From NCBI GenBank assembly GCA_028277405.1, contig JANQGH010000083.1:1-64000 (forward strand): 64,000 bases of DNA, read 5' to 3'. Below, piece by piece: positions 4,360 through 21,658 of the stretch. Both the position numbers and the translations under genes were made by a program. Source of the DNA: Alphaproteobacteria bacterium. Its GTDB lineage: Bacteria; Pseudomonadota; Alphaproteobacteria; DSM-16000; Inquilinaceae. The notes under the pieces are model-generated. The model was not told the origin of the DNA and made no database searches. It worked only from the letters and a program-made list of their open reading frames with translations. Every line of letters begins with the position of its first letter. Position 1 is the stretch's first letter.

Positions 4360-5349
4360 TTGATAAGCGATCCACTGCTGGCCGTCGAAGGCTTCAGCCT
4401 TCGATTTGCAGGTTCCCCCACGGACGTCGTACAGGAAGTCGACTTTTTGGTGGATCGGGGGAAGACGTTGTGCATCGTCGGCGAGTCCGGCTGTGGCAAG
4501 AGCGTGACCGCCCTGGCGCTGATGGGACTTTTGCCGCCCAATGTGACCCGGATCGGCGGCGGGACGATGCATTTCGAGGGCAAGAGCTACGATCTGTCCC
4601 GGTTTGACAAGATCGCGGCCCTGCGCGGTGACCGCATCGCGATGATCTTTCAGGAACCGATGACCTCGCTGAACCCCGCGTTCCGCATCGGTAACCAGAT
4701 TGCCGAGGCGGTGCGCCGCCACCGCGCCGCAAGCTGGTCCGAGGCGGAAGAGGCCGCGCTCAACATCCTGCGCCGTGTCGGCATTCCCGCGGCCGAGCAG
4801 CGCCTGCGCGAATACCCCCATCAGCTCTCCGGCGGCATGCGCCAGCGGGTGATGATCGCCATGGCACTGGTCAACCATCCTTCGTTGCTGATCGCAGACG
4901 AACCGACCACGGCGCTTGATGTCACGATCCAGGCGCAGATCCTGGATCTCATCCGCGAATTGCAAGACGAGATGGGCATGGGCACGATCATGATCACCCA
5001 CGATTTGGGCGTCGTGGCCGAGATCGCGACCGATGTCGCCGTCATGTATGCCGGCCAAATCATCGAAATGGGGCCCGTGTCGGAAGTCTTCGCCAACCCC
5101 CAGCACCCCTACACGATCGGTCTGATGAGTTCCGTGCCGCGCCTCACCGGCCCGCGCGAACGGCTCGCGACCGTGCCCGGCACGGTGCCCACGCTGGCCC
5201 TGATGCCGCCGGGTTGCCGGTTTTCCAGCCGGTGCCCCTTCACCGCGCCGATCTGCGCCGAGCGACCGAAATTGCGAAAACTGGCAACCGGACACTCAGC
5301 CGCGTGCCATTTCGCCCCGCTGGAAGACATGCTGGAGCAGAGCGCGTGA
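4360..5349 (+). CDS. dppD: dipeptide/oligopeptide ABC transporter ATP-binding protein (DppD-like)
   Basis: This 329-residue ATPase would energise peptide import across the inner membrane. It has Walker A GESGCGKS at residues 41-48, the signature LSGGMRQRV near 156, and Walker [13 protein letters not shown] near 175. The C-terminal oligo_HPY region has the HPYTIGL motif and a cysteine-rich tail (CRFSSRCPF...C). The start is TTG at 4360 with no clear Shine-Dalgarno sequence. The ATG-less start is the only reasonable one because the next residues already match the family N-terminus. It is the first gene of a five-gene transporter operon and overlaps the next gene by four bases. The substrate could also be another oligopeptide-like solute such as a nickel chelate or a glycoside. 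Confidence 0.9.
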
Positions 5350-6455
5350 GCGAGCCCATCCTGCAGGCAAGCGACCTCGTCCGGCATTTCCGCGTCGGGG
5401 GTGGGTTGTTGTCGAAAGGGGTCACGGTGCGCGCCGTGGACGGCGTCAGCCTGGACATACGGCGCGGCGAGACATTCGCGATCGTCGGTGAATCCGGCTG
5501 CGGCAAGTCCACCCTGGCACGGTTGTTGATGCGGCTGTTGTCGCCGACAAGCGGCTCGATTCGCTTCGAGGGGAAGGAGATCTCCGAACTGGGCGGACGG
5601 CCCTTAAGGGATCTGCGCCGCGATATGCAGTTCATCTTCCAGGACCCCTTTTCGTCCCTGAACCCGCGCATGAGCGTCGGCCGTATCGTCGGCGAACCGC
5701 TGGAAACCCATGAACCGGACCTGGATGCGGCAGGTCGGCGCGCCCGCGTTGCCGAGCTTTTGAGGCTGGTCGGGCTCCGCGCGGAACACACCGTGCGTTA
5801 CCCGCATGAGTTTTCAGGCGGCCAGCGCCAGCGCATCGGCATCGCACGGGCGCTGGCGTCCGGTCCGAAGCTGCTGATCGGTGACGAGCCGGTCTCGGCG
5901 CTCGACATGTCGGTGCAGGCGCAAGTGGTCAATCTCTTGGAGGATCTTAAGCGGGATCTGGACCTGACCCTTGTGGTCATCGCCCATGATCTGGCGGTTA
6001 TCCGCCATATGAGCGACAGGGTGGCGGTGATGTATCTGGGCCAGATCGTTGAAAGCGGTCCGACCGATACGGTTTTTTCCCAAGCGCGCCATCCCTACAC
6101 GCTGGCCCTTCTGTCGGCCATTCCCGAACCGGAGCATGGCCGCACCCGGACCCGCATCGCCCTTAGCGGCGAGCCGCCGAGCCCGTCCGACCCGCCGCCC
6201 GGCTGTCGGTTTCATACAAGATGCGCCTTCGCCCGCGACGAATGCCGGGTCCGTTCGCCCGAGCTGCGCGCCGCCCGCGACGGCCATTTGGTGGCTTGCC
6301 ATTTTTGGCAGGACATCGCCGCCGCCGGTGAGGGCTTCACGCCCGATCCCGTGGCCCCGCATCGACCCAACGTGGAGCGACGTTTCGACCTCTACCGCGC
6401 CGCTTCCCTTAACAGAAAGACGACCCCAAAGGCCGCACAGAACACGTCACCATGA
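5346..6455 (+). CDS. dppF: dipeptide/oligopeptide ABC transporter ATP-binding protein (DppF-like)
   Basis: This is the second ATPase of the peptide importer, 369 residues. Walker [10 protein letters not shown] spans residues 48-56, the signature is FSGGQRQRIGIARAL, and Walker B is LLIGDEPVSALD. The C-terminus has the HPYTLALL motif and the family cysteines (GCRFHTRCAFARDEC). I chose GTG at 5346 because it overlaps the dppD stop as GTGA, the usual coupling, and gives a normal N-terminus ([14 protein letters not shown]). The frame extends 5' to 5214, but that part lies inside dppD. DppD and DppF normally work as a heterodimer on the two permeases. Confidence 0.9.
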   Translation: MSEPILQASDLVRHFRVGGGLLSKGVTVRAVDGVSLDIRRGETFAIVGESGCGKSTLARLLMRLLSPTSGSIRFEGKEISELGGRPLRDLRRDMQFIFQDPFSSLNPRMSVGRIVGEPLETHEPDLDAAGRRARVAELLRLVGLRAEHTVRYPHEFSGGQRQRIGIARALASGPKLLIGDEPVSALDMSVQAQVVNLLEDLKRDLDLTLVVIAHDLAVIRHMSDRVAVMYLGQIVESGPTDTVFSQARHPYTLALLSAIPEPEHGRTRTRIALSGEPPSPSDPPPGCRFHTRCAFARDECRVRSPELRAARDGHLVACHFWQDIAAAGEGFTPDPVAPHRPNVERRFDLYRAASLNRKTTPKAAQNTSP

Positions 6456-6490
6456 GACCACGAGAACACCTCCATAAGAAAGGAACGACC

Positions 6491-8002
6491 ATGAATTTCA
6501 AGACAACGACCTTGGCCGCCGCGCTGCTGGGCATGACCGCGTTGGGCGCGCAGGCGCAGGATCTGCGTATTGCCCTGCAATCGGATGCCGACGTTCTGGA
6601 CCCGGATCAGTCGCGCACCTTCGTGGGTCGTATCGTCTATGCCTCGCTGTGCGACAAGCTGGTGGACATCACGCCTGATCTTGAGATCATTCCCCAACTT
6701 GCCACCGATTGGGCGTGGTCGGACGACGGCACTGCGTTGACGATGCAGTTGCGCGAAGGCGTGGTGTTTCATGATGGCACACCGTTCAACGCCGACGCCG
6801 TCGTACGCAACATCGCGCGCAGCCAGAACCTCGAGGAATCCCGCCGCAAGTCGGAGTTGAGCTCGATCATCAACACAGAGGTCCTTGGCGAGTATGAGGT
6901 CCGGTTCGATCTCAGCGCTCCGGATGCGACCCTGCTTGCCCAGCTCGCCGACCGTTCCGGTATGATGATGTCGCCGGACGCGGCCGAGGCGGCGGGGGCC
7001 GAATTCGGCCTCAATCCGGTCTGTTCCGGCCCGTTCTCGTTCGCCGAGCGGGTGGCGCAGGACCGGATCGTTCTGGAACGGTTCGACGATTACTGGAACG
7101 CCGACGAGATCCATTTCGACAGCGTCACCTTTCTGCCGATCCCGGATACGACAGTGCGCTTGGCCAATTTGCAGTCGGGCGATATCGATATCCTGGAACG
7201 GCTGGCCGCGACCGATCTGGCGCAGGCCGAAGGCGATGACGGCATCAATGTGGAAAGCGCCGTTTCGCTCGGTTACCAAGGCATAACGTTCAACGTGAAC
7301 AATGGCGACCGTGGCGACAACCCGTTCGGCAACGACGCGCGCCTTCGCCAGGCGCTTAGCTACGCGGTCGATCGCGACGCGATCAATCAGGTCGTCTTCA
7401 ACGGTGCGTTCGCGCCCGGCAATCAGCCATTTGCGCCGACCTCGCCCTGGTATGACGACAACCACCCGATTCCGGAGCGCGATGTGGAGCGGGCGCGCGA
7501 ATTGCTGGCCGAGGCCGGCTATCCCGACGGGATCGAGCTTGAAGTGCAGGTGCCCAACACGACCGTGCCGTTGCAACTGATGCAGGTCGTGCAGTCGATG
7601 GCCGCGGAGGCGGGGATCGATATCTCGCTGACCTCCAAGGAATTCGCGACGTTGCTGGCCGACCAGTCTGCGGGCGACTATCAGGCAAGCCAGATCGGCT
7701 GGTCCGGCCGGGTCGACCCGGACGGCAACATCCACCAGTTCGTGACATCGGGTGGCGGCATCAACGACAGCCATTTTGCCGACCCGGAGATCGATCGCCT
7801 GTTGGACGAGGCGCGTGCCTCCACGGATTCGGAGGTCCGGGCCGAGAGCTATGATGCGGCCCGCGCGATCCTCAACGAGGAACTGCCGATCGTCTATCTG
7901 TATCATCAGACTTGGATCTGGGCCTTGGACGATTCAATCCAGGGCTTCACGCCCTATCCCGACGGCATGATCCGGCTCGAAGGTGTCACCATGGCGGAAT
8001 GA
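6491..8002 (+). CDS. dppA: periplasmic peptide-type substrate-binding protein (SBP family 5)
   Basis: This 503-residue protein is the extracytoplasmic solute receptor of the dpp-type transporter. It begins with a clear Sec signal peptide ending ALGAQAQ near residue 19. It then shows SBP_bac_5 features: LAQSWEWSDDGTALTMQLREGV-like text, VFHDGTPFNADAVV, and a C-terminal LPIVYLYHQ motif. ATG 6491 was chosen because the frame's earlier start (6452) would put 13 charged residues before the signal peptide, and AAAGGA lies just upstream of 6491. Its position between the ATPases and the permeases is less common than the dppABCDF order. The ligand cannot be told from sequence. Confidence 0.9.
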   Translation: MNFKTTTLAAALLGMTALGAQAQDLRIALQSDADVLDPDQSRTFVGRIVYASLCDKLVDITPDLEIIPQLATDWAWSDDGTALTMQLREGVVFHDGTPFNADAVVRNIARSQNLEESRRKSELSSIINTEVLGEYEVRFDLSAPDATLLAQLADRSGMMMSPDAAEAAGAEFGLNPVCSGPFSFAERVAQDRIVLERFDDYWNADEIHFDSVTFLPIPDTTVRLANLQSGDIDILERLAATDLAQAEGDDGINVESAVSLGYQGITFNVNNGDRGDNPFGNDARLRQALSYAVDRDAINQVVFNGAFAPGNQPFAPTSPWYDDNHPIPERDVERARELLAEAGYPDGIELEVQVPNTTVPLQLMQVVQSMAAEAGIDISLTSKEFATLLADQSAGDYQASQIGWSGRVDPDGNIHQFVTSGGGINDSHFADPEIDRLLDEARASTDSEVRAESYDAARAILNEELPIVYLYHQTWIWALDDSIQGFTPYPDGMIRLEGVTMAE

Positions 8003-8015
8003 TCCGTCCTCCTGT

Positions 8016-8041
8016 CCCCCGTGAGTTGCCGCTCACGGGGG
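8016..8041 (+). other. intercistronic hairpin after the binding-protein gene
   Basis: CCCCCGTGAG at 8016-8025 and CTCACGGGGG at 8032-8041 form a perfect 10-bp stem with a 6-base loop. It sits between the binding-protein stop and the dppB start. There is no T-run after it, so it is more likely an mRNA-stabilising or attenuating element than a full terminator. Such structures often keep the binding-protein transcript more abundant than the permease part. Confidence 0.6.
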
Positions 8042-8066
8042 GCAAGGCCACCGGAAGAACCCTGTC

Positions 8067-9011
8067 ATGCTGACCTTCATCCTGCGCCGACTGCTGATCG
8101 CGATCCCGACGATCATCCTGATCACGATCTTCGTCTTCGCCCTGCAACATCTGTTGCCCGGCGATCCGATCCTCACGATGGCGGGCGAGGAGCGGGACCC
8201 GGACGTGATCGCGTTCTTGAGGGAGAAGTACCGCCTGAACGATCCGATCCCGATCCAGTATCTCGCCTGGATTGGCAATGTTCTGCAGGGCGATCTCGGC
8301 ATATCGTGGCGCACCAACCAGCCGGTGCTCGAACTGATCGGCGAGAAGCTGCCGGTCACGCTTCAACTGGCGCTGATGGCGATCCTGTTCGCGATCGTGA
8401 TCGGCGTGCCGACCGGCGTCCTGTCGGCGGTCAAGAAGGGCACGCCGATCGACTACGCGGCCAACGTCGTGGCCCTGTCGGGTCTGTCGATTCCCAACTT
8501 CTGGCTCGGCATCATGCTGATCCTGCTGGTGTCGGTGCAGTGGCAACTATTGCCGGCGTCCGGCTACGTGCCCTTGTCGGAGGATCCGGTGCGGTCTTTG
8601 ACGACCATGATCATGCCGGCGTTCGTGCTGGGCACGGCGCTGGCGGCCACATTAATGCGCCATACGCGGTCGGCCATGCTGGGCGTGTTGAAATCCGACT
8701 ATGTGCGCACGGCCCGCGCCAAGGGGCTGCTTGAGCGTTCGGTCATCCTGAAGCACGCCTTGCGCAACGCGCTGACGCCGATCGTCACGCTGACGGCCCT
8801 GCTGTTCGGCGAGCTGATCGCCGGCGCCGTCCTGACCGAGCAGATCTTCACCATTCCGGGCTTCGGCAAGCTGATCGTCGACGCGGTGTTCAATCGCGAC
8901 TACGCCGTGGTTCAGGGCGTCGTGCTGGTCACCGCGGTCGGCTTCATCGTCATGAACCTGCTGGCCGACGTGCTTTACTTCCTGCTCAATCCGCGGCTGA
9001 GGCAACAGTGA
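8067..9011 (+). CDS. dppB: dipeptide-type ABC transporter permease (DppB-like)
   Basis: This inner-membrane permease has 314 residues. The N-terminus (MLTFILRRLLIAIPTIILITIFVF) is one hydrophobic segment typical of DppB/OppB, followed by the LPGDPI motif. The EAA loop that contacts the ATPases is seen as YVRTARAKGLLERSVILKHALRNAL near residues 211-235. About six membrane segments are apparent. It ends with TGA overlapping the start of the next permease gene, so the two are translationally coupled. Confidence 0.92.
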   Translation: MLTFILRRLLIAIPTIILITIFVFALQHLLPGDPILTMAGEERDPDVIAFLREKYRLNDPIPIQYLAWIGNVLQGDLGISWRTNQPVLELIGEKLPVTLQLALMAILFAIVIGVPTGVLSAVKKGTPIDYAANVVALSGLSIPNFWLGIMLILLVSVQWQLLPASGYVPLSEDPVRSLTTMIMPAFVLGTALAATLMRHTRSAMLGVLKSDYVRTARAKGLLERSVILKHALRNALTPIVTLTALLFGELIAGAVLTEQIFTIPGFGKLIVDAVFNRDYAVVQGVVLVTAVGFIVMNLLADVLYFLLNPRLRQQ

Positions 9012-9946
9012 TGGCGGACGCCAGCGATCGGGCAAACAGCCTGTCAATCGACGCACCGGCCGATGCCACCATCGACCCGTTCTTCGATCAGGACGATCCC
9101 GTCCTGTCCACAGCGCCGGAGAACCGGGTCTGGAAGAAATTCCGATCCCATGGCAGCGCGGTCTTCGGCGGCATCCTGGTGGCGTTCTTTGTCGTCATCG
9201 CGCTGCTGGCGCCCATTCTGCCGATCGCCGATCCGATCGCCACCGATTGGGGCGCCGTCAGGCAGGCGCCGTCATGGGGGCATCCGCTTGGCACCGACGA
9301 GATCGGGCGCGATGTGCTGTCGCGCATGGTCTGGGGTGCGCAAGCCTCGCTGCTGGCTGGCGTCGTCTCGGTGGCGATCGCGGTCACGCTGGGCGTGCCG
9401 CTGGGCATCGTCGCCGGCTATTTCGGCGGCTGGACCGATGCCGTCATCTCGCGCTGCACCGAGGCGCTGCTGGCCGCGCCGTTCCTGATCCTGGCCATTG
9501 CGTTGGCGGCGTTTCTGGGGCCGTCATTGACCAATGCGATGATCGCCATCGGCATTTCCGCGACGCCGATCTTCATCCGGCTCACCCGGGGACAGGTCCT
9601 GTCCGTCAAGGCGGAAGACTATGTCGAGGGCGCGCAGGCCATCGGTCTGTCGACGCCGCGCATTCTGACCCGGTACATCTTTCCCAATGTCTTCCCGCCG
9701 GTGCTGGTGCAGGCGACGTTGACCATCGCGACCGCCATCATCGCCGAGGCATCGTTGAGCTTTCTCGGCCTCGGTCAGCAGCCGCCGGCGCCGAGCTGGG
9801 GGTCGATGCTCAACACCGCCAAGAACTTCCTTACCCAAGCGCCCTGGATGGCGCTGTGGCCAGGCATCGCGATCTTTCTGGTCGTGCTGGGCTTCAACCT
9901 GTTGGGCGACGGACTGCGTGATGCGCTCGACCCGCGCGAGAATTAG
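9011..9946 (+). CDS. dppC: dipeptide-type ABC transporter permease (DppC-like)
   Basis: This is the second permease, about 311 residues. A long polar N-terminal tail is followed by the OppC_N motif (WKKFRSHGSAVFGG) and the HPLGTDEIGRDVLSRMVWG signature of DppC/OppC. The EAA loop is YVEGAQAIGLSTPRILTRYIFPN. ATG 9011 overlaps the dppB stop (TGATG); a GTG at 9008 would add one residue. The C-terminus LGDGLRDALDPRE is diagnostic for the family. With DppB it forms the translocation channel. Confidence 0.92.
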   Translation: MADASDRANSLSIDAPADATIDPFFDQDDPVLSTAPENRVWKKFRSHGSAVFGGILVAFFVVIALLAPILPIADPIATDWGAVRQAPSWGHPLGTDEIGRDVLSRMVWGAQASLLAGVVSVAIAVTLGVPLGIVAGYFGGWTDAVISRCTEALLAAPFLILAIALAAFLGPSLTNAMIAIGISATPIFIRLTRGQVLSVKAEDYVEGAQAIGLSTPRILTRYIFPNVFPPVLVQATLTIATAIIAEASLSFLGLGQQPPAPSWGSMLNTAKNFLTQAPWMALWPGIAIFLVVLGFNLLGDGLRDALDPREN

Positions 9947-9964
9947 ACCGTCACTGGAGGCTGA

Positions 9965-10711
9965 GTGTCCAACATTGCCACCTGGCCGCAGACACCCGGC
10001 ACGTTAGCGATGGAGGCGATCGAAACAGATGATGATCTGGTCAATGCGCTGCGCAGCGGGATCGTCGACGAACGGTTCGTAACCAACGGCCGGGTCCTGC
10101 CGGAACGGATTCTCGCCAGCAAACTGATGGTCAGTCGTTTCCGCCTGCGCCGTGCCCTGGATGTTCTGGAAGATGATGGGGCGATTTTTCGCAGGCGCGG
10201 ACAGGGTACGTTCGCCGCACCGCCACCCGCCGTGGAAAGCGGCAATTTCCGCATCCTTGCCCGCCGCGTGACGCCCCAGGACGTTATGGAGGCCCGGCTT
10301 GAAGTCGAACCGGCTCTCGCCGCCCTGGCCGCCCAGCGGGCCTCACGGGACGAGATAAAGATGCTCGACCGCCTGACCCGGGCGACCTTCGAGGCCAGCG
10401 ACACCGCAGGTTACGATATTGCCGACGATGTCTTTCACTACAAGATCGCGGAGTTGGCCCACAACCCTCTCTTCCTGACGATTTACCAATCCATCAGCAC
10501 GGTACGAAAGCACGCGGATTGGACCAGCCGCCGGCACGAGACCTACTCCAAAAAAATGATCGAACAGCTGGTTCGGCAACATGAGGATCTGTTTCGGTCC
10601 ATCGCGGCGCGGGACCCGCGCGCAGCCGCCGAAACCATGGAAAAGCACCTTATCACGGTCTCGAATGCAATGCTGCGCGGTCGTACCTACGGTCAGGCGG
10701 CTGGAGGTTAA
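9965..10711 (+). CDS. GntR-family transcriptional regulator with FCD domain
   Basis: This is a 248-residue regulator. The N-terminal part, about residues 20-85, is a winged helix with RFVTNGRVLPERILASKLM and ending RRRGQGTF, the standard GntR wing. The C-terminal all-alpha FCD domain includes DDVFHYKIAELAHNPLF and the late HEDLFRSIAARDPRAAAE segment. Its Asp/His residues commonly bind a metal and an organic acid ligand. GTG 9965 lies 18 bases after dppC, so it is probably cotranscribed with the transporter and may regulate it. The spacing in the HTH (LASKLMVSRFRLRRALD) fits the FadR/VanR group. The effector is unknown. Confidence 0.85.
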   Translation: MSNIATWPQTPGTLAMEAIETDDDLVNALRSGIVDERFVTNGRVLPERILASKLMVSRFRLRRALDVLEDDGAIFRRRGQGTFAAPPPAVESGNFRILARRVTPQDVMEARLEVEPALAALAAQRASRDEIKMLDRLTRATFEASDTAGYDIADDVFHYKIAELAHNPLFLTIYQSISTVRKHADWTSRRHETYSKKMIEQLVRQHEDLFRSIAARDPRAAAETMEKHLITVSNAMLRGRTYGQAAGG

Positions 10712-11337: not shown

Positions 11338-11340
11338 GGC

Positions 11341-11362
11341 TGGCTCCATTGTCGTGGAGCCA
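11341..11362 (+). promoter_or_regulatory. 5'-UTR hairpin covering the ribosome binding site
   Basis: TGGCTCC (11341-11347) pairs with GGAGCCA (11356-11362) around an 8-base loop. The GGAG of the 3' arm (11356-11359) is the Shine-Dalgarno sequence, five bases before the ATG at 11365. The stem would hide the ribosome binding site. The predicted transcript start is at about 11342-11346, so the hairpin would form the very 5' end of the mRNA, and part of the left arm may be lost depending on the exact start. Confidence 0.5.
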
Positions 11363-11364
11363 CC

Positions 11365-12294
11365 ATGAGCCATAACTTCCTGGTCATCGACCCCGAGAAA
11401 GACGGTGCCGCGCTTAAAGGCATCTCCTCGGCCCCGCGTGTGAGCATCCTTAGGCTGTTGCTGCGCGAGGGCGGCATGAATGTGAACGACATCGCCAAAC
11501 GGCTTGGGCTTCCGCAGTCCTCGGTCTCGTCCAACGTACAGGTCCTTGAGGAGGCGGGCCTGTTGCGCACGGAAGCACAGAGGGCAAGAAAGGGCAGTCA
11601 GAAGATCTGCCACGCGATCTATGACGAGCTGATCATAACGTTTCGCGAATCCGAGGCGGTCATCGATCCGCACCAGATTGAAGTGGCCATGCCGCTTGGC
11701 CTTTACACCAACAGCGACGTGACCGGTCCGTGCGGCATCTGCTCACCCGATGGCGTGATCGGCCTGCTGGACGTGCCGGAGACCTTTCTGGATCCGGAGC
11801 GGATGAAAGCCTCCCTTCTCTGGTTTACCAGCGGCTTCGTCGAATACCAGTTTCCCAACAATGCCAAGCTGATCGGAGCCGAAATCGAGCAGATCGAGTT
11901 TGCCATGGAGATCAGTTCGGTGGTGCCGGGCACGCTCGCCGACTGGCCGTCAGACATCGTCATGTCGATCAACGGCGTGGAGCTTGGCGCCTGGACCTCG
12001 CCGGGTGATTTCGGGGACAAGCGTGGCGCCTATACACCCGCCTGGTGGACCATGAGCGGTTCGCAATACGGCATGCTCAAAAGCTGGACCGTAAATGGCA
12101 CCGGCGCCTATATCGATGGCCGGAGACTGTCCGCCGTCACCGTCGACAGGCTGGACTTGAACGCTCATCGCTCTATTCGACTGAAGATCGAAGTGAAGCC
12201 CGACGCCAGCCATCCCGGGGGCGTCAACGTCTTTGGCCGGCGCTTTGGCAATTACGACCAGGACATCGTGATGCGCCTGCATACCAGACGCTGA
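11365..12294 (+). CDS. ArsR-type winged-helix regulator with C-terminal sensor-like domain
   Basis: This is a 309-residue protein. Residues about 15-95 form an ArsR/MarR-like winged helix (ISSAPRVSILRLLLREGGMN, IAKRLGLPQSSVSSNVQVLE). Residues about 100-309 are a beta-rich region with many aromatic residues and motifs DWPSDIVMSINGVELGAWTSPGDFG and GGVNVFGRRFGNYDQDIVMRL. It resembles predicted regulators (COG4189 type) found next to arabinofuranosidase genes. The classical ArsR metal-binding cysteines are absent. A CGIC pair near residue 127 is the only cysteine cluster. The immediate downstream neighbour is the GH51 gene, so sensing of a pentose or arabinoside by the C-terminal domain is a reasonable inference. 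It is not proven. Confidence 0.75.
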   Translation: MSHNFLVIDPEKDGAALKGISSAPRVSILRLLLREGGMNVNDIAKRLGLPQSSVSSNVQVLEEAGLLRTEAQRARKGSQKICHAIYDELIITFRESEAVIDPHQIEVAMPLGLYTNSDVTGPCGICSPDGVIGLLDVPETFLDPERMKASLLWFTSGFVEYQFPNNAKLIGAEIEQIEFAMEISSVVPGTLADWPSDIVMSINGVELGAWTSPGDFGDKRGAYTPAWWTMSGSQYGMLKSWTVNGTGAYIDGRRLSAVTVDRLDLNAHRSIRLKIEVKPDASHPGGVNVFGRRFGNYDQDIVMRLHTRR

Positions 12295-12387
12295 TCGACC
12301 GCGCATCCCGACTCGTCTTACGCCTCTCAACCGCCGATCAAATCCGGCTTGACAACGTCGGACGACGGCGCGATTGTACTCAAAAAT

Positions 12388-12416
12388 CCGGTCTATACCG
12401 GAATAATTGATATAAT
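12388..12416 (+). promoter_or_regulatory. arabinofuranosidase promoter with CCGGT/ACCGG inverted repeat
   Basis: A perfect -10 box TATAAT lies at 12411-12416. The -35 position is occupied by the inverted repeat CCGGT-CTAT-ACCGG (12388-12401) rather than a TTGACA. This suggests activator dependence or an operator. The predicted start of transcription (about 12422-12425) falls within the Shine-Dalgarno sequence GGGAGG (12421-12426) before ATG 12432, so the leader would be only about 8-10 bases long. Confidence 0.45.
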
Positions 12417-12431
12417 GCTTGGGAGGTACGC

Positions 12432-13943
12432 ATGAAGGCCAGAGTAGCCGTGCACCGAGAGTTTCGCGTTGGGACGATCGATGAGCGGCTTTACTCGGCG
12501 TTCATCGAGCATATGGGCCGAGCGATCAACGGAGGCATCTATGATCCTGGCCACCCGGAAGCAGATGAACGGGGCTTCCGTCGCGATGTGCTTGCCCTGG
12601 TGCGCGATCTGAAGATCCCGGCGATCCGCTATCCCGGCGGTAATTTCGTTTCCGCCTACAACTGGGAAGACGGTATCGGGCCGAAGGATCGTCGACCCGT
12701 CCGTCTCGATTTGGCCTGGCGCTGCAAGGAGACCAACCAGGTCGGCATCAACGACTTTGCCCACTGGGCCAGCATGGCCGGCATCGAGATGATGCTGGCG
12801 GTCAATCTCGGCTCCCGCGGTCTGGAGGAGGCGCGCAACTTTCTCGAATACGTCAACTTCCCCGGCGGCACGGCGTGGAGCGACCTGCGCCGGAGCCACG
12901 GCGTCAGCGAGCCTTACGGCGTGAAGATGTGGTGCCTGGGCAACGAGATGGATGGCCCCTGGCAGATCGGCCACAAGGTCGCGACCGAATATGGGCGCCT
13001 TGCCGACGAGACGGCCAAGGCGTTCAAGGCCTTCGACCGCAACATCGAGACGGTGGTGTGCGGCAGTTCCAATGACAAGATGGCGACCTATCCGGAGTGG
13101 GAGCGCGAGGTTCTCGAGGAGTGCTATGAGAATGTCGACTATATATCCATGCACAAATACTTCGGCAACAACAGCAAGGATACGCTGAATTATTTTGCCA
13201 AGGTCGAAGAGACCGGCCGCTATATTCAGACGGTTGGCGCGATCATCGACTACGTCAAAGCCAAAAAGCGCGCCAAAAACGACGTTCGCATCAGCTTTGA
13301 CGAGTGGAACGTCTGGTATCACGACCGGGATGTGGATTCCCGGCGTATCAAGGAGTGGGATTGGCCGGAGGCCCCACCGCTGCTGGAGGAATCCTATAAT
13401 TTCGAGGACGCGCTTTTTGTCGCCTGCCTGCTGAACGAGTTCATCCGCCGCAGCGATCGTGTCCGCATCGCCTGCATCGCCCAACTCGTCAACGTGATCG
13501 CGCCGATCCGGGCGGAAAAGGATGGTCCAGCCTGGCGCCAGACGATCTATTACCCCTATCAGATGGCATCGCTGTACGGACGCGGAGACGCGCTTCAGGT
13601 CAGCGTCGACGCCCCGCGATATGACTGCCGCGTCGCAGCCGATGTGCCCTATCTCGATGCCGCCGCCGTCCATGACCAGCAGGGCGGTATGGTGACACTG
13701 TTCTTGGTCAACCGACACCTGACCGAAAGCGCCGCGCTCGACGTGTCGCTGACCGGCTTTTTGCAGCCGCAACTGGACCGGCACATTGCGATGGGGGGCC
13801 ACGCGCTGACCGACACCAACGGCGCCGATCATCAGGACAAGGTTGCCCCGTCGCCGGGTAGCGGCGTGGGGATCGAGGACGGGCGTCTGCGCGGCAGCTT
13901 GCCACCTTTGTCCTATCACGTCTTGCGGGTCAAAGTGAGCTGA
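12432..13943 (+). CDS. abfA: alpha-L-arabinofuranosidase, GH51
   Basis: This 503-residue enzyme of glycoside hydrolase family 51 releases terminal arabinofuranosyl residues from arabinan, arabinoxylan or oligosaccharides. The acid/base glutamate is E172 in WCLGNEMDGPWQ and the nucleophile is E291 in SFDEWNVWY, both present and correctly spaced. The N-terminal RYPGGNFVSAYNWEDGIGP segment is also typical of the family. No signal peptide is visible, so it acts in the cytoplasm on imported oligosaccharides. A strong GGGAGG precedes the ATG. Its neighbours, a regulator and a sugar ABC transporter 10 bases downstream, form one catabolic module. Confidence 0.93.
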   Translation: MKARVAVHREFRVGTIDERLYSAFIEHMGRAINGGIYDPGHPEADERGFRRDVLALVRDLKIPAIRYPGGNFVSAYNWEDGIGPKDRRPVRLDLAWRCKETNQVGINDFAHWASMAGIEMMLAVNLGSRGLEEARNFLEYVNFPGGTAWSDLRRSHGVSEPYGVKMWCLGNEMDGPWQIGHKVATEYGRLADETAKAFKAFDRNIETVVCGSSNDKMATYPEWEREVLEECYENVDYISMHKYFGNNSKDTLNYFAKVEETGRYIQTVGAIIDYVKAKKRAKNDVRISFDEWNVWYHDRDVDSRRIKEWDWPEAPPLLEESYNFEDALFVACLLNEFIRRSDRVRIACIAQLVNVIAPIRAEKDGPAWRQTIYYPYQMASLYGRGDALQVSVDAPRYDCRVAADVPYLDAAAVHDQQGGMVTLFLVNRHLTESAALDVSLTGFLQPQLDRHIAMGGHALTDTNGADHQDKVAPSPGSGVGIEDGRLRGSLPPLSYHVLRVKVS

Positions 13944-13953
13944 GGCCGAGCGC

Positions 13954-15030
13954 ATGGGTGTCCGGCTGAACAACGTCAACAAGAGCTTTGGCGCCGTTCA
14001 GGTGATCCATGACGTTTCGCTCGACATTCAGACTGGCGAGTTCGCCGTGTTTGTCGGGCCGTCCGGGTGCGGCAAGTCAACCTTGCTGCGCGTGATTGCG
14101 GGGCTTGAGGACACCGACAGCGGCACGATCGAGATCGAAGGCCGCGACGTCAGCGATGTCGAGCCCGCCCAGCGCGGCGTGGCGATGGTCTTCCAATCCT
14201 ACGCGCTCTATCCGCATCTGACGGTGTTCGAGAACCTGGCGTTCAGCTTGCGTCTTGCCCGCACGCCCAAGGCGGCGATGCGCCAGATGGTCGGCGAGGC
14301 GGCGCGCATCCTCCGGCTTGAGGATCAGCTCGACAAGAAGCCGGCTCAGCTGTCCGGCGGCCAGCGGCAGCGGGTCGCGATCGGACGCGCCATCGTGCGC
14401 AAGCCCAAGGTTTTTTTGTTCGATGAGCCCTTGTCGAACCTGGATGCCGAACTGCGCGTTCAGATGCGCCTCGAACTGACCCGCCTGCATCGGCAGATCG
14501 GCGCCACGATGATCTATGTGACCCACGATCAGGTCGAGGCGATGACGCTGGCCAGTCGGATTTTCGTCCTGCGCGACGGCATGCTTCAGCAATCCGGCCC
14601 GCCGCTGGACCTTTACGATGACCCCGACAACCGCTTTGTCGGTGGCTTCATCGGCTCGCCGGCAATGAATTTCCTGCCGGCAACGGTCATGGAACACGAA
14701 AGCGGCGTGTTGCAGCTGGCCCCCGATGACGCCGACGATGGGCGATTTGCCGCCCGGCTACAGGGACGGCAGCTTGCGAAGGGCAGCCGCGTGACGGCCG
14801 GCATTCGCCCGGAGCATTTCGTCATCAATGATGCGGGCCTGCGCGTCAGCGTCGAGGTCGCCGAGCAGCTTGGCGATGTTTCCTATCTCTTCACCCGGAC
14901 GGGCGATGACCGCGAACTGATCGTCAAGCAAGACAAATCGCGCGCGTCCCTCACCGGTCAGACGATCGGCCTTTCGGCCGATCCAAACGATGTCCTGGTC
15001 TTTGACGAGGCAGGCCAGCGACTGCGCTAG
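13954..15030 (+). CDS. ugpC: sugar ABC transporter ATPase (MalK/UgpC/MsmK type)
   Basis: This 358-residue ATPase has Walker A GPSGCGKST (about residues 37-45), the signature LSGGQRQRVAIGRAI, and Walker B VFLFDEPLSNLDAELR. The C-terminal TOBE/regulatory domain begins near residue 240 (VGGFIGSPAMNFLPA). The NLDAELR D-loop is typical of the carbohydrate uptake transporter 1 (CUT1) family. It lies 10 bases behind abfA and about 70 bases before the binding-protein gene. It energises the MalFG-like permeases downstream. The symbol denotes the family, not a proven glycerol-phosphate substrate; arabino-oligosaccharides are more likely here. Confidence 0.88.
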   Translation: MGVRLNNVNKSFGAVQVIHDVSLDIQTGEFAVFVGPSGCGKSTLLRVIAGLEDTDSGTIEIEGRDVSDVEPAQRGVAMVFQSYALYPHLTVFENLAFSLRLARTPKAAMRQMVGEAARILRLEDQLDKKPAQLSGGQRQRVAIGRAIVRKPKVFLFDEPLSNLDAELRVQMRLELTRLHRQIGATMIYVTHDQVEAMTLASRIFVLRDGMLQQSGPPLDLYDDPDNRFVGGFIGSPAMNFLPATVMEHESGVLQLAPDDADDGRFAARLQGRQLAKGSRVTAGIRPEHFVINDAGLRVSVEVAEQLGDVSYLFTRTGDDRELIVKQDKSRASLTGQTIGLSADPNDVLVFDEAGQRLR

Positions 15031-15098
15031 GCGCGGCAATCGCGCCGATACTTGTGAACCAGACCGTCCTCAAAGGCGGAAAAGAAGGGAGGAATGAG

Positions 15099-16373
15099 AT
15101 GAGCGTTTTTCGATCCATCGTAACAGCGGCCGCCCTCGCGACCGTCGCGACACCGGCGCTGGCCCAGCAGGAAGTCGTCTGGTGGGATTTCCTTTCCGGC
15201 GGAGACGGGGTGCGCATGGCGGCGCTCATTGACCGCTTCAACGAGGAGCATCCCGACATCAACATCGACGCCACCACCCTGGAATGGGGCGTGCCGTTCT
15301 ATACCAGGATACGCACCTCCACCGCCGTCGGCGAAGGCCCCGACATCATGACCTACCACCTGTCGCGCGTGCCGCTGGCCCTGGATGAAGGCGTGCTGAG
15401 CGAAATCACAGCCGAAGATCTGGCGAATGCCGGTCTGACGACCAACGATTTTTACGAGCGCAGCATCGCCGCCGCCAGCAGCGACGACGGCACGCTTCAC
15501 GCCGTCCCTTTCGACGTTCATTCCGTGGTGCTCTACTACAATAGGGACATGCTTGAAGGCACGAATTACCTCGATGCCGACGGCAACCTGACCGGCATGG
15601 ACAGTCTTGAGAGTTTCGAAGCGGCCATGGCAGCGCTCGTCGAGAACGGCGTCACGGAGCCGCTGTCCTACGCCACCGCCGATGCCGGCACCACGTATCG
15701 GGTGTTTTATACGCTGTTCAGCCAGATGGGTGGCGAGTTGATCACCGATGGCGAGGTGCTGGCTGGCGACAATGCCGACAAGGCTGTGCAGGCCATCGAG
15801 ATCATGGCCAGGTGGCGCGAAAACGGCTGGGTTCCGGAGCAGACCGAATATCCCGCCTCGGTCGCGCTGTTCACCTCGGGCCGGTCCCCCTTTCATTGGA
15901 ACGGTGTCTGGGAAGTGCCGACCATGACCGACCTGGCGGCAAGCGGCGAGCTGAGCTTCGACTGGGGTGCGGTGCAGATCCCAGCCCTGATGGGTCAGCT
16001 TGGGACCTGGGCCGATTCCCACGCTTTTGCCATCCCGCAAGAAGACCAACCCATGGACCCGGAAAAGCGCGCCGCAGTGATGACGGTCATCGGCTGGATG
16101 TCGCAAAACTCGCTTTCGTGGGCCGAGGCGGGGCACGTCCCCGCGTTCCGATCGGTTGCCGAGAGCGATGACTTTCGCGCCATGGAGCCAAACGCCACCT
16201 ATGCCGCGCTCGTGGAGACCGTCGCCTATGACCCCCGGTCGCAGATCGCAGGCGTGGCGTCACCGCTTTACGATGCGGTGCAGAACCTGATCGTGCCTGC
16301 GGTCGACGGTTTCGTGACGCCGCAGCAGGCGATCGACCAGATGAAGACGGACTTGCAAAGGCTCATTCGCTGA
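15099..16373 (+). CDS. extracellular sugar-binding protein, SBP family 1
   Basis: This 424-residue periplasmic receptor starts with a Sec signal peptide (MSVFRSIVTAAALATVATPALAQ). It continues with EVVWWDFLSGGDGVRMAALIDRFNEEHP, typical of family 1 sugar-binding proteins. Start 15099 was chosen over 15054 because AAGGGAGGA lies just before it and the signal peptide then begins correctly. Residues HWNGVWEVPTM and GTWADSHAFAIPQ belong to the ligand-cleft region seen in CUT1 receptors. The ligand is inferred from the neighbouring abfA to be an arabinose-containing oligosaccharide. Confidence 0.88.
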   Translation: MSVFRSIVTAAALATVATPALAQQEVVWWDFLSGGDGVRMAALIDRFNEEHPDINIDATTLEWGVPFYTRIRTSTAVGEGPDIMTYHLSRVPLALDEGVLSEITAEDLANAGLTTNDFYERSIAAASSDDGTLHAVPFDVHSVVLYYNRDMLEGTNYLDADGNLTGMDSLESFEAAMAALVENGVTEPLSYATADAGTTYRVFYTLFSQMGGELITDGEVLAGDNADKAVQAIEIMARWRENGWVPEQTEYPASVALFTSGRSPFHWNGVWEVPTMTDLAASGELSFDWGAVQIPALMGQLGTWADSHAFAIPQEDQPMDPEKRAAVMTVIGWMSQNSLSWAEAGHVPAFRSVAESDDFRAMEPNATYAALVETVAYDPRSQIAGVASPLYDAVQNLIVPAVDGFVTPQQAIDQMKTDLQRLIR

Positions 16374-16379
16374 TCGACG

Positions 16380-16419
16380 GAGACCGCCGCGGCTTCCACG
16401 AGGAGGCCGCGGCGGTCTC
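16380..16419 (+). other. very stable intercistronic hairpin between binding-protein and permease genes
   Basis: GAGACCGCCGCGGC (16380-16393) pairs perfectly with GCCGCGGCGGTCTC (16406-16419), a 14-bp GC-rich stem with a 12-base loop. It begins seven bases after the binding-protein stop codon. No T-run follows. The placement is like the malE-malF intergenic element, which protects the binding-protein mRNA from 3' exonucleases and lowers permease expression. Confidence 0.7.
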
Positions 16420-16445
16420 ATGCCAACGCCGCGACGGAGCCGGTC

Positions 16446-17330
16446 ATGGCCGTGATCCGCAATCCCCGCAAGAACGCGCTCATCGCCGCCAGTTTGGTGG
16501 CGCCGTTCGTGCTGACATTCGCGCTGGTCTTCGCCTATCCGACGTTCCAGGTGATCCGGCTCAGCTTTACCGACAGCCCGCTCATCGGCGACGGTGAGTG
16601 GATCGGACTGGACAATTATTGGCGGCTGCTGTCGGACCGGCTGTTTTATACCTCGCTTTGGAACAACGGCTATTTCCTGTTGTTGACCGTGGTGCCGACG
16701 ACCGCCCTGGCGCTCGGCATGGCACTTTTGGTCAACAAGTTAAAAGGACGCTGGCAGGCGCTCGTGCTCGCGCTGTTCTTCCTGCCCTACATCTTGCCGG
16801 TCTCGGTGGTGACCGAGATCTGGACCTGGATGCTCGATTTTCAGTTCGGCATCCTGCAGCCGGTCATCACGCTGTTCAACGGCGATCCGGTCGCCGTCTT
16901 TCGCAATCCGTATTGGGTGATGCCGATGATCGCGCTGGTCACGGTATGGTGGGTCAACGGCTTCAACGTGCTGCTGTTCATCGCGGGCTTGCGCAACATT
17001 CCCCGGGACCTTTATGAGGCGGCCGCGCTGGACGGCGCGACGGCCCGGCAGCGCTTCCTGCGGGTTACCTGGCCGCTGTTATGGCCGATCACGGTGTTGG
17101 TCTTGACGCTGCAACTCATCCTGCAGCTGAAGATCTTCGACCAGGTCTACCTGTTGAGCCAGGGCGGCCCCTTCAACACGTCCTACGTGCCGCTTCTACT
17201 GGTCTACCGGGAAGCGTTCCAGTTGAACGAGGGCGGCTACGCATCGGCGATCGCCCTGGTGATCTTCGTCATCATCCTTGTGGTCTCTGTGTTGCAGTTC
17301 CAGCTTTTGCGCATCGTGGGGCGACGGTGA
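16446..17330 (+). CDS. sugar ABC transporter permease (MalF type)
   Basis: This 294-residue inner-membrane permease has about six membrane segments. The first is LIAASLVAPFVLTFALVFAY. The EAA loop is DLYEAAALDGATARQRFLRVTWPLL, the standard CUT1 ATPase-contact motif. ATG 16446 follows the strong hairpin at 16380. The end overlaps the next permease gene by four bases (GTGA). It forms the channel with the downstream permease and is driven by the ATPase at 13954. Confidence 0.9.
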   Translation: MAVIRNPRKNALIAASLVAPFVLTFALVFAYPTFQVIRLSFTDSPLIGDGEWIGLDNYWRLLSDRLFYTSLWNNGYFLLLTVVPTTALALGMALLVNKLKGRWQALVLALFFLPYILPVSVVTEIWTWMLDFQFGILQPVITLFNGDPVAVFRNPYWVMPMIALVTVWWVNGFNVLLFIAGLRNIPRDLYEAAALDGATARQRFLRVTWPLLWPITVLVLTLQLILQLKIFDQVYLLSQGGPFNTSYVPLLLVYREAFQLNEGGYASAIALVIFVIILVVSVLQFQLLRIVGRR

Positions 17331-18157
17331 GAGGCGCACGCAAGGTCGAGAACCTGGTTCTGACCGTGTGCGGCCTGACGGCGGCACTTGTCTGGATATT
17401 CCCGATCTACTGGGCCGTGGTGACCTCCTTGCGTTCGGAAAGCCATGTGGTGAGCGACGATGCGGGGCTTCTTCCGGACGGGTTCAATCTGACGGCGTTT
17501 ACCGACGCGCTCTTCAACACGCAGATCGTACGCTGGTACTTCAACTCGATCGGCACGGCGCTGATCATCACGATCGGCGTCATCGTATCGTGCATGATGT
17601 GCGCCTACGCGATCTCTCAGATGCGGTTTCCCGGTCGGCGGCTGTTGTATGGCATCGTGCTTGCCAGTTTCATGATCCCCGCCCAGGCGCTGGTCGTCAG
17701 CCAATTCATCCTGATGAGCGATCTGGGGCTGGTGAACAGCTGGGCGGGCATCATTCTGCCGCAGCTGATCGTGCCGATCGTCATCATCGTCTACAAGCAG
17801 TTCTTCGATGCGGTGCCCAAGGAGATGCGCGAGGCCGTGATACTCGATGGCGGCGGCGAATATGTGCTGCTCTTCAAGCTCTATCTGCCGCTCAATTGGG
17901 GGATCACGACGGCCCTTGCCATCATCACCTTCATCGGTGCGTGGAACGCCTTTTTCTGGCCCTTCCTGGTCACGACAACCGAGGACATGATGACGATACC
18001 AGTTGGCATCACCCAGGTTAACGACGTCTTTGGCGTCGCTTATGCCCGCTTAATGGCCGTAGCGCTTTTGGCCGCCATGCCCGTTGCACTGGCCTATCTG
18101 ATCTTTCAGCGGCGCGTGACAGAAGCGGTAATGATCTCATCGGGGGTCAAGGGCTGA
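17327..18157 (+). CDS. sugar ABC transporter permease (MalG type)
   Basis: This 276-residue permease starts at GTG 17327, overlapping the upstream stop; the frame is open further 5' but only inside the neighbouring gene. It has a MalG-like order: a first membrane segment (VLTVCGLTAALVWIFPIYWAVVT), the SLR..E segment, and the EAA loop EMREAVILDGGGEYVLLFKLYLPL. The C-terminus is QRRVTEAVMISSGVKG, typical of MalG proteins. It is the last gene of the arabinoside operon and is followed only by pseudogene remains and a tRNA. Confidence 0.9.
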   Translation: MRGARKVENLVLTVCGLTAALVWIFPIYWAVVTSLRSESHVVSDDAGLLPDGFNLTAFTDALFNTQIVRWYFNSIGTALIITIGVIVSCMMCAYAISQMRFPGRRLLYGIVLASFMIPAQALVVSQFILMSDLGLVNSWAGIILPQLIVPIVIIVYKQFFDAVPKEMREAVILDGGGEYVLLFKLYLPLNWGITTALAIITFIGAWNAFFWPFLVTTTEDMMTIPVGITQVNDVFGVAYARLMAVALLAAMPVALAYLIFQRRVTEAVMISSGVKG

Positions 18158-18251
18158 TCGGACCTGCTTCAGCGGAAGCCGCGGTCCAGCTGATCCGCGC
18201 GGGAATGCAGCAAATGTCGGATCAGGCGATGTCTCATCAAGAAACGCGCCC

Positions 18252-18677
18252 GTGCCAAACATCGAAAACCTCAAAAAGCAGGCCAAGCTTTATCTGCGAT
18301 GGCACCCGTGAAGGATGTTTTCCTGTCGCGATGCAGATCAGCCGGTTCGTGGTCCGATACCAAGGCTTGTCCGACAAAGAAGTATTAAGCGCGGATTTCA
18401 AGCTCAGCGATGCGCAGGAGCTTGTGGCCAGAAAGCTCGGTTTCGAGAGTTGGCCGACGCTCAGGAAAGGTATCGAAACAATAACGGCATCAGCACCGTC
18501 CAGCGGCCCCACAGCAACTATCATGGCGGCCGAACCACAGCTCCTCGTCGCCGATATAGAGCTTGCTTGTCGGTCTTATGTTGAGAAGCTCGGCTTCAAG
18601 AGCAGGGTCTCTTATGGCGAACCGCCGTTTTACGCTGAGGTCTGTCGTGATGACGGGCGCTTGAATTTGCGCAAACT
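18252..18677 (+). pseudogene. frameshifted and 3'-truncated VOC/glyoxalase-family gene
   Basis: GTG 18252 starts PNIENLKKQAKLYLRWH, which then meets TGA because of a frameshift near 18297-18306. The next frame continues with REGCFPVAMQISRFVVRYQG, KLSDAQELVARKLGFESW and then a VOC half-domain (EPQLLVADIELACRSYVEKL, YGEPPFYAEVCRDDGRLN). The protein should run on for about 60 more residues, but coding similarity stops at the CCA end of the adjacent tRNA-Ser. Two lesions, a frameshift and a terminal deletion, mark it as a pseudogene. The family is that of dioxygenase-like resistance or glyoxalase proteins. Confidence 0.7.
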
Positions 18678-18769
18678 TGGCGGAGGGACCGGGATTCGAA
18701 CCCGGGCACCGGGTTTCCCCGATGGACGGTTTAGCAAACCGCTGGTTTCAGCCACTCACCCACCCCTCC
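18678..18769 (-). tRNA. serX: tRNA-Ser (anticodon GCU)
   Basis: On the minus strand the sequence starts GGAGGGGTGGGTGAGTGGCT and ends with TCCCTCC, discriminator G and an encoded CCA (18678-18680). The anticodon loop TTTGCTAAA lies in stem GGT/ACC and gives anticodon GCU, reading AGC/AGU. A long variable arm (CCATCGGGGAAACCCGGTG region) and a T-arm with GGTTCGAATCC are present, as in all bacterial serine tRNAs. The symbol is generic. Its 3' end abuts the truncated VOC gene, a common integrase target arrangement. Confidence 0.95.
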
Positions 18770-18836
18770 GCAGGAGTGGCGCGCGGGAATGTGCGCCTTG
18801 GCCGACCGGCGTTCTAATGGGGCGGCCGGGCGCTTG

Positions 18837-19511
18837 TCAATCGCCCACTGCAGCGGCCTGTGCTCGGACTTGGCTATACGGTTCTGCATCCCCCGGCACC
18901 TTCATGCCCCGCTGGACCGCCGGCCGGGCGCCCACATCGGCAAGCCACCGTTCGACATTCGGATAATCCGCCCAATCGAGATCGCCGGCCCTGAGCTTGC
19001 GCACGCCATTCACCCAACCATAGGTGGCGATGTCGGCGATCGAATAGGCGCCGCCAAGATAGGGCGCCTCGGCCAGCCGTGTGTCCATGACCGCGAGCAG
19101 GCGCCGCATCTCGGTGTCGTAACGGTCGATCGCGTAAGGCACATGCTCGTCAGCCGCACGGGCGAAATGGAAGTACTGGCCGAACATCGGCCCTACGCTG
19201 GCCTTCTGCCACATCAGCCATTGCAGGACGTCGGTCCGCGCGGCGCCCGTAGCCGGCAGCAGCTTGCCGGTCTTTTCCGCCAGATAGATCAGAATGGCGC
19301 CGGATTCGAAGACCGATCGCGGGCCGTCCTCGGCGTCGTGATCGACGATGGCGGGGATCTTGTTGTTCGGGCTGATCTTTAAGAACGCCGGGTCGAACTG
19401 TTCCTTGGCCCCGATATTCACCGGATGCACCCTGTAGGGCAGCCCCACCTCCTCCAGCATGATCGAGACCTTGCGGCCGTTCGGGGTGGTCCAGGTGTAG
19501 AGGTCGATCAT
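18837..19511 (-). CDS. glutathione S-transferase, YfcG/YghU-like
   Basis: This 224-residue GST starts MIDLYTWTTPNGRKVSIMLEE. The TTPNGRKVSI motif is the glutathione-site signature of Nu-class (YfcG/YghU) enzymes, which use Thr/Asn rather than Tyr and often act as disulfide-bond reductases. ISPNNKIPAIVD (cis-Pro motif) and FESGAILIYLAEK complete the thioredoxin-like domain. The C-terminal helical domain has the PYLGGAYSIADIATYGWV motif. ATG 19511 was chosen over 19565 because the longer form adds 18 proline-rich residues not expected in the family. It stands alone. Confidence 0.9.
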   Translation of the reverse strand: MIDLYTWTTPNGRKVSIMLEEVGLPYRVHPVNIGAKEQFDPAFLKISPNNKIPAIVDHDAEDGPRSVFESGAILIYLAEKTGKLLPATGAARTDVLQWLMWQKASVGPMFGQYFHFARAADEHVPYAIDRYDTEMRRLLAVMDTRLAEAPYLGGAYSIADIATYGWVNGVRKLRAGDLDWADYPNVERWLADVGARPAVQRGMKVPGDAEPYSQVRAQAAAVGD

Positions 19512-19666
19512 TGGGGGCCTCGGCCGCATGGGTGGGGCGCTCGGCTGAAGCATCGCTGAACGCAACGCCGCATCATGTGGGCAGCATCCCGCCTCTATTC
19601 AGGCCCGTTCAGGCACAAGACCGTAAACCAGACGGCAACGATCCGGCGGCAGACGCCGGAAACCTG

Positions 19667-21478
19667 CTATTCGGCGACCTGCTTCACGGCCTTGGGCAGG
19701 TTCAACTTGATGTGAAGCTCGCGCAGCCGGTCCTCCTCCACCGAGGCCGGCGCCTGCATCATCAGATCCTCCGCCCGCTGGTTCATCGGGAAGGTGATGA
19801 CCTCGCGCAGGTTGGGTTCGTCGGCCAGCAGCATCACGATCCGGTCGATGCCCGGGGCCGAACCGCCATGGGGCGGCGCGCCATAGCGCATGGCCGACAG
19901 CATGCCGCCGAACTTCTCCTCCAGCACGGACGGGTCATAGCCGGCGATGCCGAAGGCCTTGATCATGATCTCCGGCTTATGGTTCCGGATGGCGCCGGAG
20001 GACAGCTCAACGCCGTTGCAGACGATGTCGTACTGATAAGCCAGGACGGACAGCGGGTCTTGGGTTTCCAGCGCCTCCAGCCCGCCTTGGGGCATGGAGA
20101 ACGGGTTGTGCGAGAAGTCGATCTGGCCGGTCTCTTCATCCATGTCGTACATCGGATAGTCGACGATCCAGCAGAATTCGAACCGGTCCTCGTCGATGAC
20201 GCCCATGTCTTCGGCGATGCGCGTGCGGGCAAGGCCGGCCATCTTCTCCGCCGCCGGCCGCTGGTCGCAGACGAAGAAGACCGCGTCGCCATCGTCCAAC
20301 CCGGCGGCCTCGCGCAGGGCGGCCTGGGCGGCCTCCGGCACGAACTTGGCGATCGGCCCCTTGCCGCCGCCGTCCTCGAAAAGGATGTAGCCCAAGCCCG
20401 GCGCACCTTCGCCCTGCGCCCAGGCGTTCAGCTTGTCGAAAAAGCTGCGCGGCCGGTCGCCGACGGCGGGCGCCTTGATCGCCCGGACGACACCGCCCCG
20501 GTCGATCACGCCCTTAAAGGCGCGGAAGGCGACATCCTCGCGGGCGAAGACGTCCGTGACGTCAACGATCGTCAGCGGGTTGCGCAGGTCCGGCTTGTCC
20601 GTGCCGTATTTCAGCATCGATTCCGCATACGGTATGCGCGGGAAGGGCGGCTTGGTCACCGGCCTGTCCGTGCCCGTGAAATCGGCGAACTCGTCGAACA
20701 CCCCGTGCAGCACCGGCTCGATGGCCGCGAACACGTCCTCCTGGGTGACGAAGCTCATCTCGAAGTCGAGCTGATAGAATTCGCCCGGGCTGCGGTCGGC
20801 CCGGCTGTCCTCATCGCGGAAGCAGGGCGCGATCTGAAAGTACCGGTCGAAGCCGGACATCATCAACAGCTGCTTGAACTGCTGCGGCGCCTGCGGCAGG
20901 GCGTAGAACTGGCCCGGATGCAGCCGCGATGGCACCAGGAAGTCGCGCGCGCCTTCAGGGCTGGTCGCGGTCAGGATCGGCGTTTGATACTCGCGAAAGC
21001 CCTGCTCGATCATGCGCCGGCGGATCGACGAAATCACGTCGGAGCGCAGCGCGATGTTGCGCTGCATCTTGGGCCGGCGCAGATCGAGATAGCGGTGGCG
21101 CAGGCGCACCTCTTCGCCCGCATCCTCATCGGAGTTGACCTGCAACGGCAGCAGCGCCGCGGCCGACTGAACCTCGATCTCCTCGATCTTCAGCTCCACC
21201 TGGCCGGTCGGCAGCTTGTCGTTGATGGTCTCTTCGCTGCGCCTGACGACGCTGCCTGTCAGGGTCAGGACGGACTCGACACGGGCCGCCTCGGCGGTCT
21301 CGAAGCACGGGCTGTCGACATCGACAACGCATTGGGTCAGGCCGTAATGGTCGCGCAGATCGATAAACAGCAGGTTGCCGTGATCGCGCTTGCGATGGAT
21401 CCAGCCCGAAAGGCGCGCCGTGCCGCCGGCATGGGTCTCGCGCAGTTCGCCGCAGGTATGGGTGCGAAAGGGGTGCAT
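19667..21478 (-). CDS. aspS: aspartyl-tRNA synthetase, bacterial type
   Basis: This class II synthetase has 603 residues. The N-terminal OB fold binds the anticodon ([20 protein letters not shown]), followed by motif 2 ([19 protein letters not shown]), the GAD insertion and motif 3 ([13 protein letters not shown]). Position 33 is His in the KRDHG motif. In characterised enzymes a histidine here goes with a non-discriminating enzyme that also makes Asp-tRNA-Asn, whereas E. coli has Leu. That would require GatCAB for asparaginylation, which is not in this window. ATG 21478 was used; the extra 21 residues upstream are unlike the family. Confidence 0.96.
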
Positions 21479-21658
21479 GGACGGGGTTTCTGTCTGGTTT
21501 GTCTGGTGATTTCGTCTGGTGGTCCAGACACGGCGCGACAAGGCATCCTGGCCCGTGTTTTGTCAAGCGCCCTGATCTGCGAAGAACATGTGGCGTGCAA
21601 AACCCGATCTCAATTCGACTCCCCACGGCCGCCCCGTTTCGGCTACAACCCCCGGGTC

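Follow-up and report, generated by a model that had tools for sequence, protein, structure and literature searches.

The locus examined here raises the question of what comes to an end at the 3′ end of a tRNA gene. Within the window, i.e., the whole 64,000-nucleotide stretch of DNA that was analysed (bases 1-64000 of contig C52, 117,557 bases long, from the 6.2-Mb, 101-contig assembly of the studied genome, G000), a gene of the VOC (glyoxalase-fold) type runs into the CCA end of a tRNA-Ser(GCU) gene and is cut there (Table 1). The first-pass annotation had read this fusion as the boundary of a genomic island. Sequence comparisons support a boundary at this position, and it is probably here that the stable chromosome meets exchangeable DNA, whereas an island of the tyrosine-integrase type is not supported. 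The arrangement is fairly ordinary, but it lacks the hallmarks usually left by a mobile element. On balance we lean towards an explanation in which the CCA end is the edge of a slot with variable content, the present junction having formed through recombination or deletion at a short homology.

Table 1. Features of the window on both sides of the VOC/tRNA-Ser(GCU) fusion.
Feature	Position	Strand	Remarks
Contig end	1..99		Identical to the end of contig C90 over 99 bases
FG-GAP/RTX-repeat gene, 3′ part	160..4038	+	Accessory side; Pfam
Peptide ABC transporter genes and GntR/FCD regulator	5214..10711	+	Accessory side; Pfam
Regulator, alpha-L-arabinofuranosidase and sugar ABC transporter genes	11365..18157	+	Accessory side; Pfam
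VOC (glyoxalase-fold) pseudogene	18252..18677	+	Start at 18252; 3′ half missing from 18678 on
Short-homology junction	18677..18684		Bases common to the tRNA 3′ end (plus one flanking T) and the two nearest intact VOC genes
tRNA-Ser(GCU)	18678..18769	-	CCA encoded; 3′ end forms the boundary; single copy in the assembly
Glutathione S-transferase (GST) gene	18837..19565	-	Backbone side
Aspartyl-tRNA synthetase gene (aspS)	19667..21541	-	Backbone side

The cut is as exact as had been claimed, since base 18677 is the final base before the CCA and the spacer between the VOC remnant and the tRNA gene is zero. The remnant carries a one-base frameshift near position 18306, after which the frame stays open through the tRNA and beyond. 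The ORF in this frame (18205-18966) had no Pfam match at E<=0.1, and the VOC name was taken from the homologues, the nearest of which contains a Pfam Glyoxalase domain (3.7e-17). The nearest homologues belong to Pelagibius and share 73-74% protein identity with the remnant. The homologue search returned 16 loci, and the 11 that matched nearly the whole query were used. The remnant is colinear with all 11 up to the K codon at 18673-18675, which corresponds approximately to residue 141 of a 213-residue Pelagibius protein, and lacks the second half of the domain. A search of the studied genome with the whole protein returned, besides the remnant, only one other match (36%; contig C71, residues 91-210), which may be read as a paralogue, and the detached 3′ half was not found elsewhere in the assembly by this search.

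The tRNA gene matches the Rfam tRNA model with 53.2 bits over positions 18681-18769, and its own 92 bases find only themselves in the whole assembly (E<=0.001). Its 5′ half is identical to those of genera g4 and g6 (44/44), and its 3′ half is nearest to that of genus g3 (45/48), in a comparison that leaves out L015 (= locus L090). A one-gene aspS tree places the studied genus apart from g4, g6 and g7 (support 97/95) and resolves nothing further. A mosaic tRNA gene produced by integration was considered and not adopted: the D-arm type of this gene is also present in distant members of the class, and shared ancestry or convergence would therefore fit the two halves as well.

In regard to the boundary itself, the tRNA-Ser(GCU) loci of 13 genomes were compared, comprising the studied genome and 12 relatives from the same family and representing 7 genera. 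The preceding tRNA search covered 96 genomes, in which 9 of the 16 family relatives matched the whole tRNA and one (G006) almost the whole; a GST search then added G004 and G009, and G001, G007, G008 and G010 stand outside the comparison. The genomes searched include no second member of the studied genus. As some contigs end early, both flanks were cut to the same length within each genome (478-5000 bases), and genes were compared by blastp of open frames. A gene in common was found on the 5′ flank in 14 of the 62 between-genus pairs and on the 3′ flank in 0/62, while the within-genus pairs gave 11/16 and 3/16, respectively, the pairs not being independent of each other in either set. Matches between opposite sides occurred in 2 between-genus pairs and several times within g3, the latter coming from G013, where the tRNA is inverted.

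Beside the conserved tRNA flank, gene content thus differs between relatives at the level of the family, not of the species. Among nine relatives scanned, the 3′ side holds a DegT aminotransferase (G006), a histidine kinase (G009), methyltransferases (G004, G016), a type III restriction protein (G011), dxs (G013, the inverted case), an RTX-repeat protein (G014), Cas3 (G003), or an ABC-membrane protein together with an AcrB transporter (G012). In the congeners G005 and G012, a stretch of 5182 bases with 90.5% identity stops on the last base of the CCA in both, and G002 and G014 also part exactly at the CCA, their homology returning 173-460 bases further on. On the other hand, G011, G014 and G016 have about 30 bases in common beyond the CCA, so the break does not fall at the CCA in every comparison.

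Some of these loci show rearrangements of their own. In G013, about 171 bases comprising tRNA-Ser(GCU) with 75 bases of 5′ flank are inverted (L062:9797-9967 vs L064:10822-10991); the neighbours on either side, dxs and an RTX gene, are those of G014 and G002. In five g3 genomes, tRNA-Ser(GCU) and tRNA-Thr(UGU) are separated by 0.45 to about 14 kb (L061, L062, L064, L065, L066, L157), and the cargo in between varies, with an RTX gene in three genomes and a type III restriction protein in one. The Cas3 gene of G003 starts about 530 bases downstream of its tRNA-Ser(GCU) (L063:10526-13171).

Turning to the studied genome, the modules proposed for the left side were recovered by Pfam as far as the RTX/FG-GAP gene, the peptide ABC transporter and the arabinofuranosidase/sugar ABC cluster are concerned. 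A proposed SDR remnant was not: ORFs 10730-11146 and 11143-11673, the only place where it was looked for, have no Pfam match. Arabinofuranosidase matches at E<=1e-30 occur in 7 of the 17 family genomes (own included), i.e., in 2 of 11 genera, and the VOC family is similarly patchy, with 5/17 genomes (own included) and 2/11 genera. A similar sugar-transport cluster is present in G011 on another contig and in a different gene order, and such modules are therefore common to genera but do not lie at the tRNA-Ser site. The 99 bases shared by the ends of C52 and C90 most simply represent an assembly overlap, and C90 adds 11.7 kb with a GntR/UTRA regulator, an FGGY kinase, a DeoC/LacD-type aldolase, a zinc dehydrogenase and a peptide-binding protein; no tRNA was found on it, and its far end has no match to any other contig of the assembly. 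FG-GAP/RTX frames reach the overlapping end on both contigs (1292 aa on C52, 1906 aa on C90), and a very long FG-GAP/RTX-repeat gene is apparently split across the two contig ends (window 1-4038 and L112:1-5718).

Base composition also differs between the two sides. Mean GC in 1.5-kb windows is 62.4% on the left (12 windows) and 62.0% on C90 (7), compared with 65.4% on the right (65) and 64.5% in 20 kb sampled from contig C84 (13). The difference is modest, with Mann-Whitney P values of 4.6e-5 for left vs right, 1.6e-4 for C90 vs right, and 1.1e-6 for left and C90 together vs right and C84 together.

The right side had been described as containing core genes only, which holds for the two genes checked: AspS and GST both have matches in 17/17 family genomes, those of GST including paralogues. 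GST is found 5′ of tRNA-Ser(GCU) in the studied genome and in three other genera (G004, G006, G009). It is adjoined by aspS in the studied genome, but not in those three, where aspS is on other contigs and where the 5′ sides have in common a Cys/Met-type PLP enzyme, shared also with G003, G005 and G012. Since the next gene after GST differs, the right side is not unchanged either.

As for the way in which the junction formed, the intact VOC genes of the two Pelagibius homologues offer a clue. At the break point, 7 (L044) and 6 (L045) of their bases are identical to the tRNA end, or 8 and 7 when the preceding T is counted, and a match of at least 6 bases to the tRNA end occurs at just 3 and 2 of 642 positions, respectively. 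In the nine remoter homologues, the match is 0 bases if counting starts at the T and 0-5 if it starts at the following codon, and at the base preceding the homologous stretch the studied genome differs from both Pelagibius genes. The parent in this comparison is represented by the homologues' intact genes, an inferred parent in place of the studied genome's own, and 6-7 bases are little, the short homology having been spotted after the fact.

Illegitimate recombination is known to produce deletions between short direct repeats that leave one copy behind. Judged against the inferred parent, the junction would resemble such events, with a repeat of 6-8 bases of which one copy would have been kept and the intervening sequence lost. 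According to the explanation that we favour, backbone would lie on the 5′ side of the tRNA and exchangeable genes on its 3′ side; a VOC gene of the accessory side would have recombined with the tRNA end, or a deletion would have run up to it, in either case presumably through the 6-8-base common sequence. A fusion or deletion across the repeat would leave the tRNA intact, keep a single repeat copy and deprive the VOC gene of its end, which is the structure seen. Selection for the single-copy tRNA would make the cut exact, because a deletion into such a gene would probably be lethal.

The main alternative is an integrase-type island, in which an element with a tyrosine integrase would have entered at the 3′ end of tRNA-Ser, with the integrase and the other attachment site now lying beyond the assembly or lost, and with the VOC fragment as element DNA beside the tRNA-side attachment site. 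We consider this history rather unlikely and, because the assembly is incomplete, place it no lower. Islands of this kind, as the Islander study defines them, have an intact tRNA gene at one end, a displaced fragment of the same tRNA at the other and an integrase inside, tRNA genes being a common target (PMC4383910). The studied locus is like them in its edge, which coincides exactly with the 3′ terminus of an intact tRNA, and in the lower GC and patchy genes (VOC, arabinofuranosidase) on that side, and unlike them in that neither a displaced tRNA fragment nor an integrase was found on C52 or C90, the far end lying outside the assembly. The exact CCA breaks in the two congener pairs also speak for an integrase, and their recurrence in other lineages is what integrase insertion would lead one to expect, so that an integrase might explain all of them.

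The first-pass annotation had further expected a direct copy of the tRNA 3′ segment and an integrase gene upstream of base 1, while noting that the window itself holds no integrase. The last point is borne out: the genome has nine matches to the integrase family PF00589 (eight above the cut-off; serine recombinases fall outside this search), none of which is on C52, and no tRNA was found at any of the nine loci. The expected upstream integrase did not appear as far as C90 reaches, its 11.7 kb being equally free of PF00589 matches, as is the left 18.7 kb, and among the left-side ORFs scanned (small ones only partly covered) no phage or conjugation family was present. Nor did a convincing copy of the tRNA segment emerge. 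A 24-mer from the tRNA 3′ end, allowing up to 3 mismatches, found two other tRNA genes and nothing else in the whole assembly, and a 16-mer with up to 1 mismatch found one near-match, on C84, with the mismatch in its last base. The 251 bases around the latter look coding-like by eye, a reversed-pattern control returned 0, and by a rough estimate the match is due to chance. Exact matches to the tRNA reach at most 11 bases in the left 18.7 kb and stay below 10 in C90. BLASTN with word size 7, the size used by Islander but with different gap costs (PMC4383910), run on C52, C90 and the nine integrase loci, gave a best E of 0.43 apart from the gene itself; this value belongs to two 16-base matches on C52, one of which lies at 3204 in the left part and corresponds to tRNA positions 60-75 in opposite orientation, and to one 13-base match near an integrase.

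The relatives give a similar picture. No fragment reaching the tRNA 3′ end was found around tRNA-Ser in the 12 relatives within the stretches covered, where matches of 13-19 bases at 3/12 loci never extended to that end, nor in 35-220 kb from each of 7 relatives, where the matches were of 13-24 bases with E>=0.014. Of the 13 loci, only that of G002 has a PF00589 integrase no more than 20 kb from tRNA-Ser (or before the contig ends). This genome served as a positive control: seed and BLASTN searches both recovered a 56-base copy of the 3′ part of tRNA-Thr(UGU) at C10:67544-67599, adjoining an integrase (68424-68942) and lying 7.7 kb from tRNA-Thr. The region (C10, ~67,541-75,399; L138, L065) is a textbook integrase island of about 7.7 kb, with an integrase frame of 468 aa. 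It sits at a tRNA-Thr gene about 4 kb from tRNA-Ser, which counts in favour of the integrase history. A fragment of tRNA-Ser in the studied genome may be unassembled, as there are 101 contigs. A literature search returned nothing on Pelagibius genomic islands. Because the displaced fragment was looked for and not found in the assembly, we class the locus as the edge of a variable slot and not as an integrase island.

It is also conceivable, if improbable, that homologous recombination in flanking backbone genes swaps the content of the slot, the VOC truncation being a bystander of repeated swaps. Such exchange has been proposed for hotspots devoid of mobility genes in a study that finds integrases in 45% of hotspots (PMC5635113). 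The studied locus is like the hotspots without mobility genes in its variable content beside a conserved flank and in the lack of an integrase on C52 and C90, and the single integrase near tRNA-Ser among 13 loci points the same way. However, those hotspots lie between core genes within a species (PMC5635113), while here just a single flank is known and it is genera and species of one family that are compared, and swaps alone do not explain a break exactly at the CCA.

A broader version of the short-homology route appears similarly doubtful. According to it, the CCA end would be a break point recurring across the family without need of an integrase, the content beyond it being repeatedly replaced through short homology between the acceptor end and chance matches in incoming genes, and selection on the tRNA would keep the recurrent cut exact. 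Finally, plain pseudogene decay, in which the VOC gene would be an old neighbour of the tRNA that lost its end by drift and without exchange, fits the presence of a frameshift besides the truncation but is highly improbable, considering that no tRNA occurs within the stretch covered at any of the 11 full-length VOC loci (genome_contigs), that the VOC matches of G002, G014, G015 and G016 are in all four on a different contig from tRNA-Ser, and that no 3′-side gene is common to any of the 62 between-genus pairs.

Taken as the edge of a variable slot, the tRNA-Ser(GCU) gene adds one more clean case in which a tRNA gene anchors the turnover of chromosomal DNA. The test for displaced fragments was checked against a genuine integrase island, located at a nearby tRNA gene of a related genome. 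Should the short-homology route prove general, accessory DNA could be bounded by tRNA ends with no integrase involved, and this would matter wherever islands are called from tRNA position alone.
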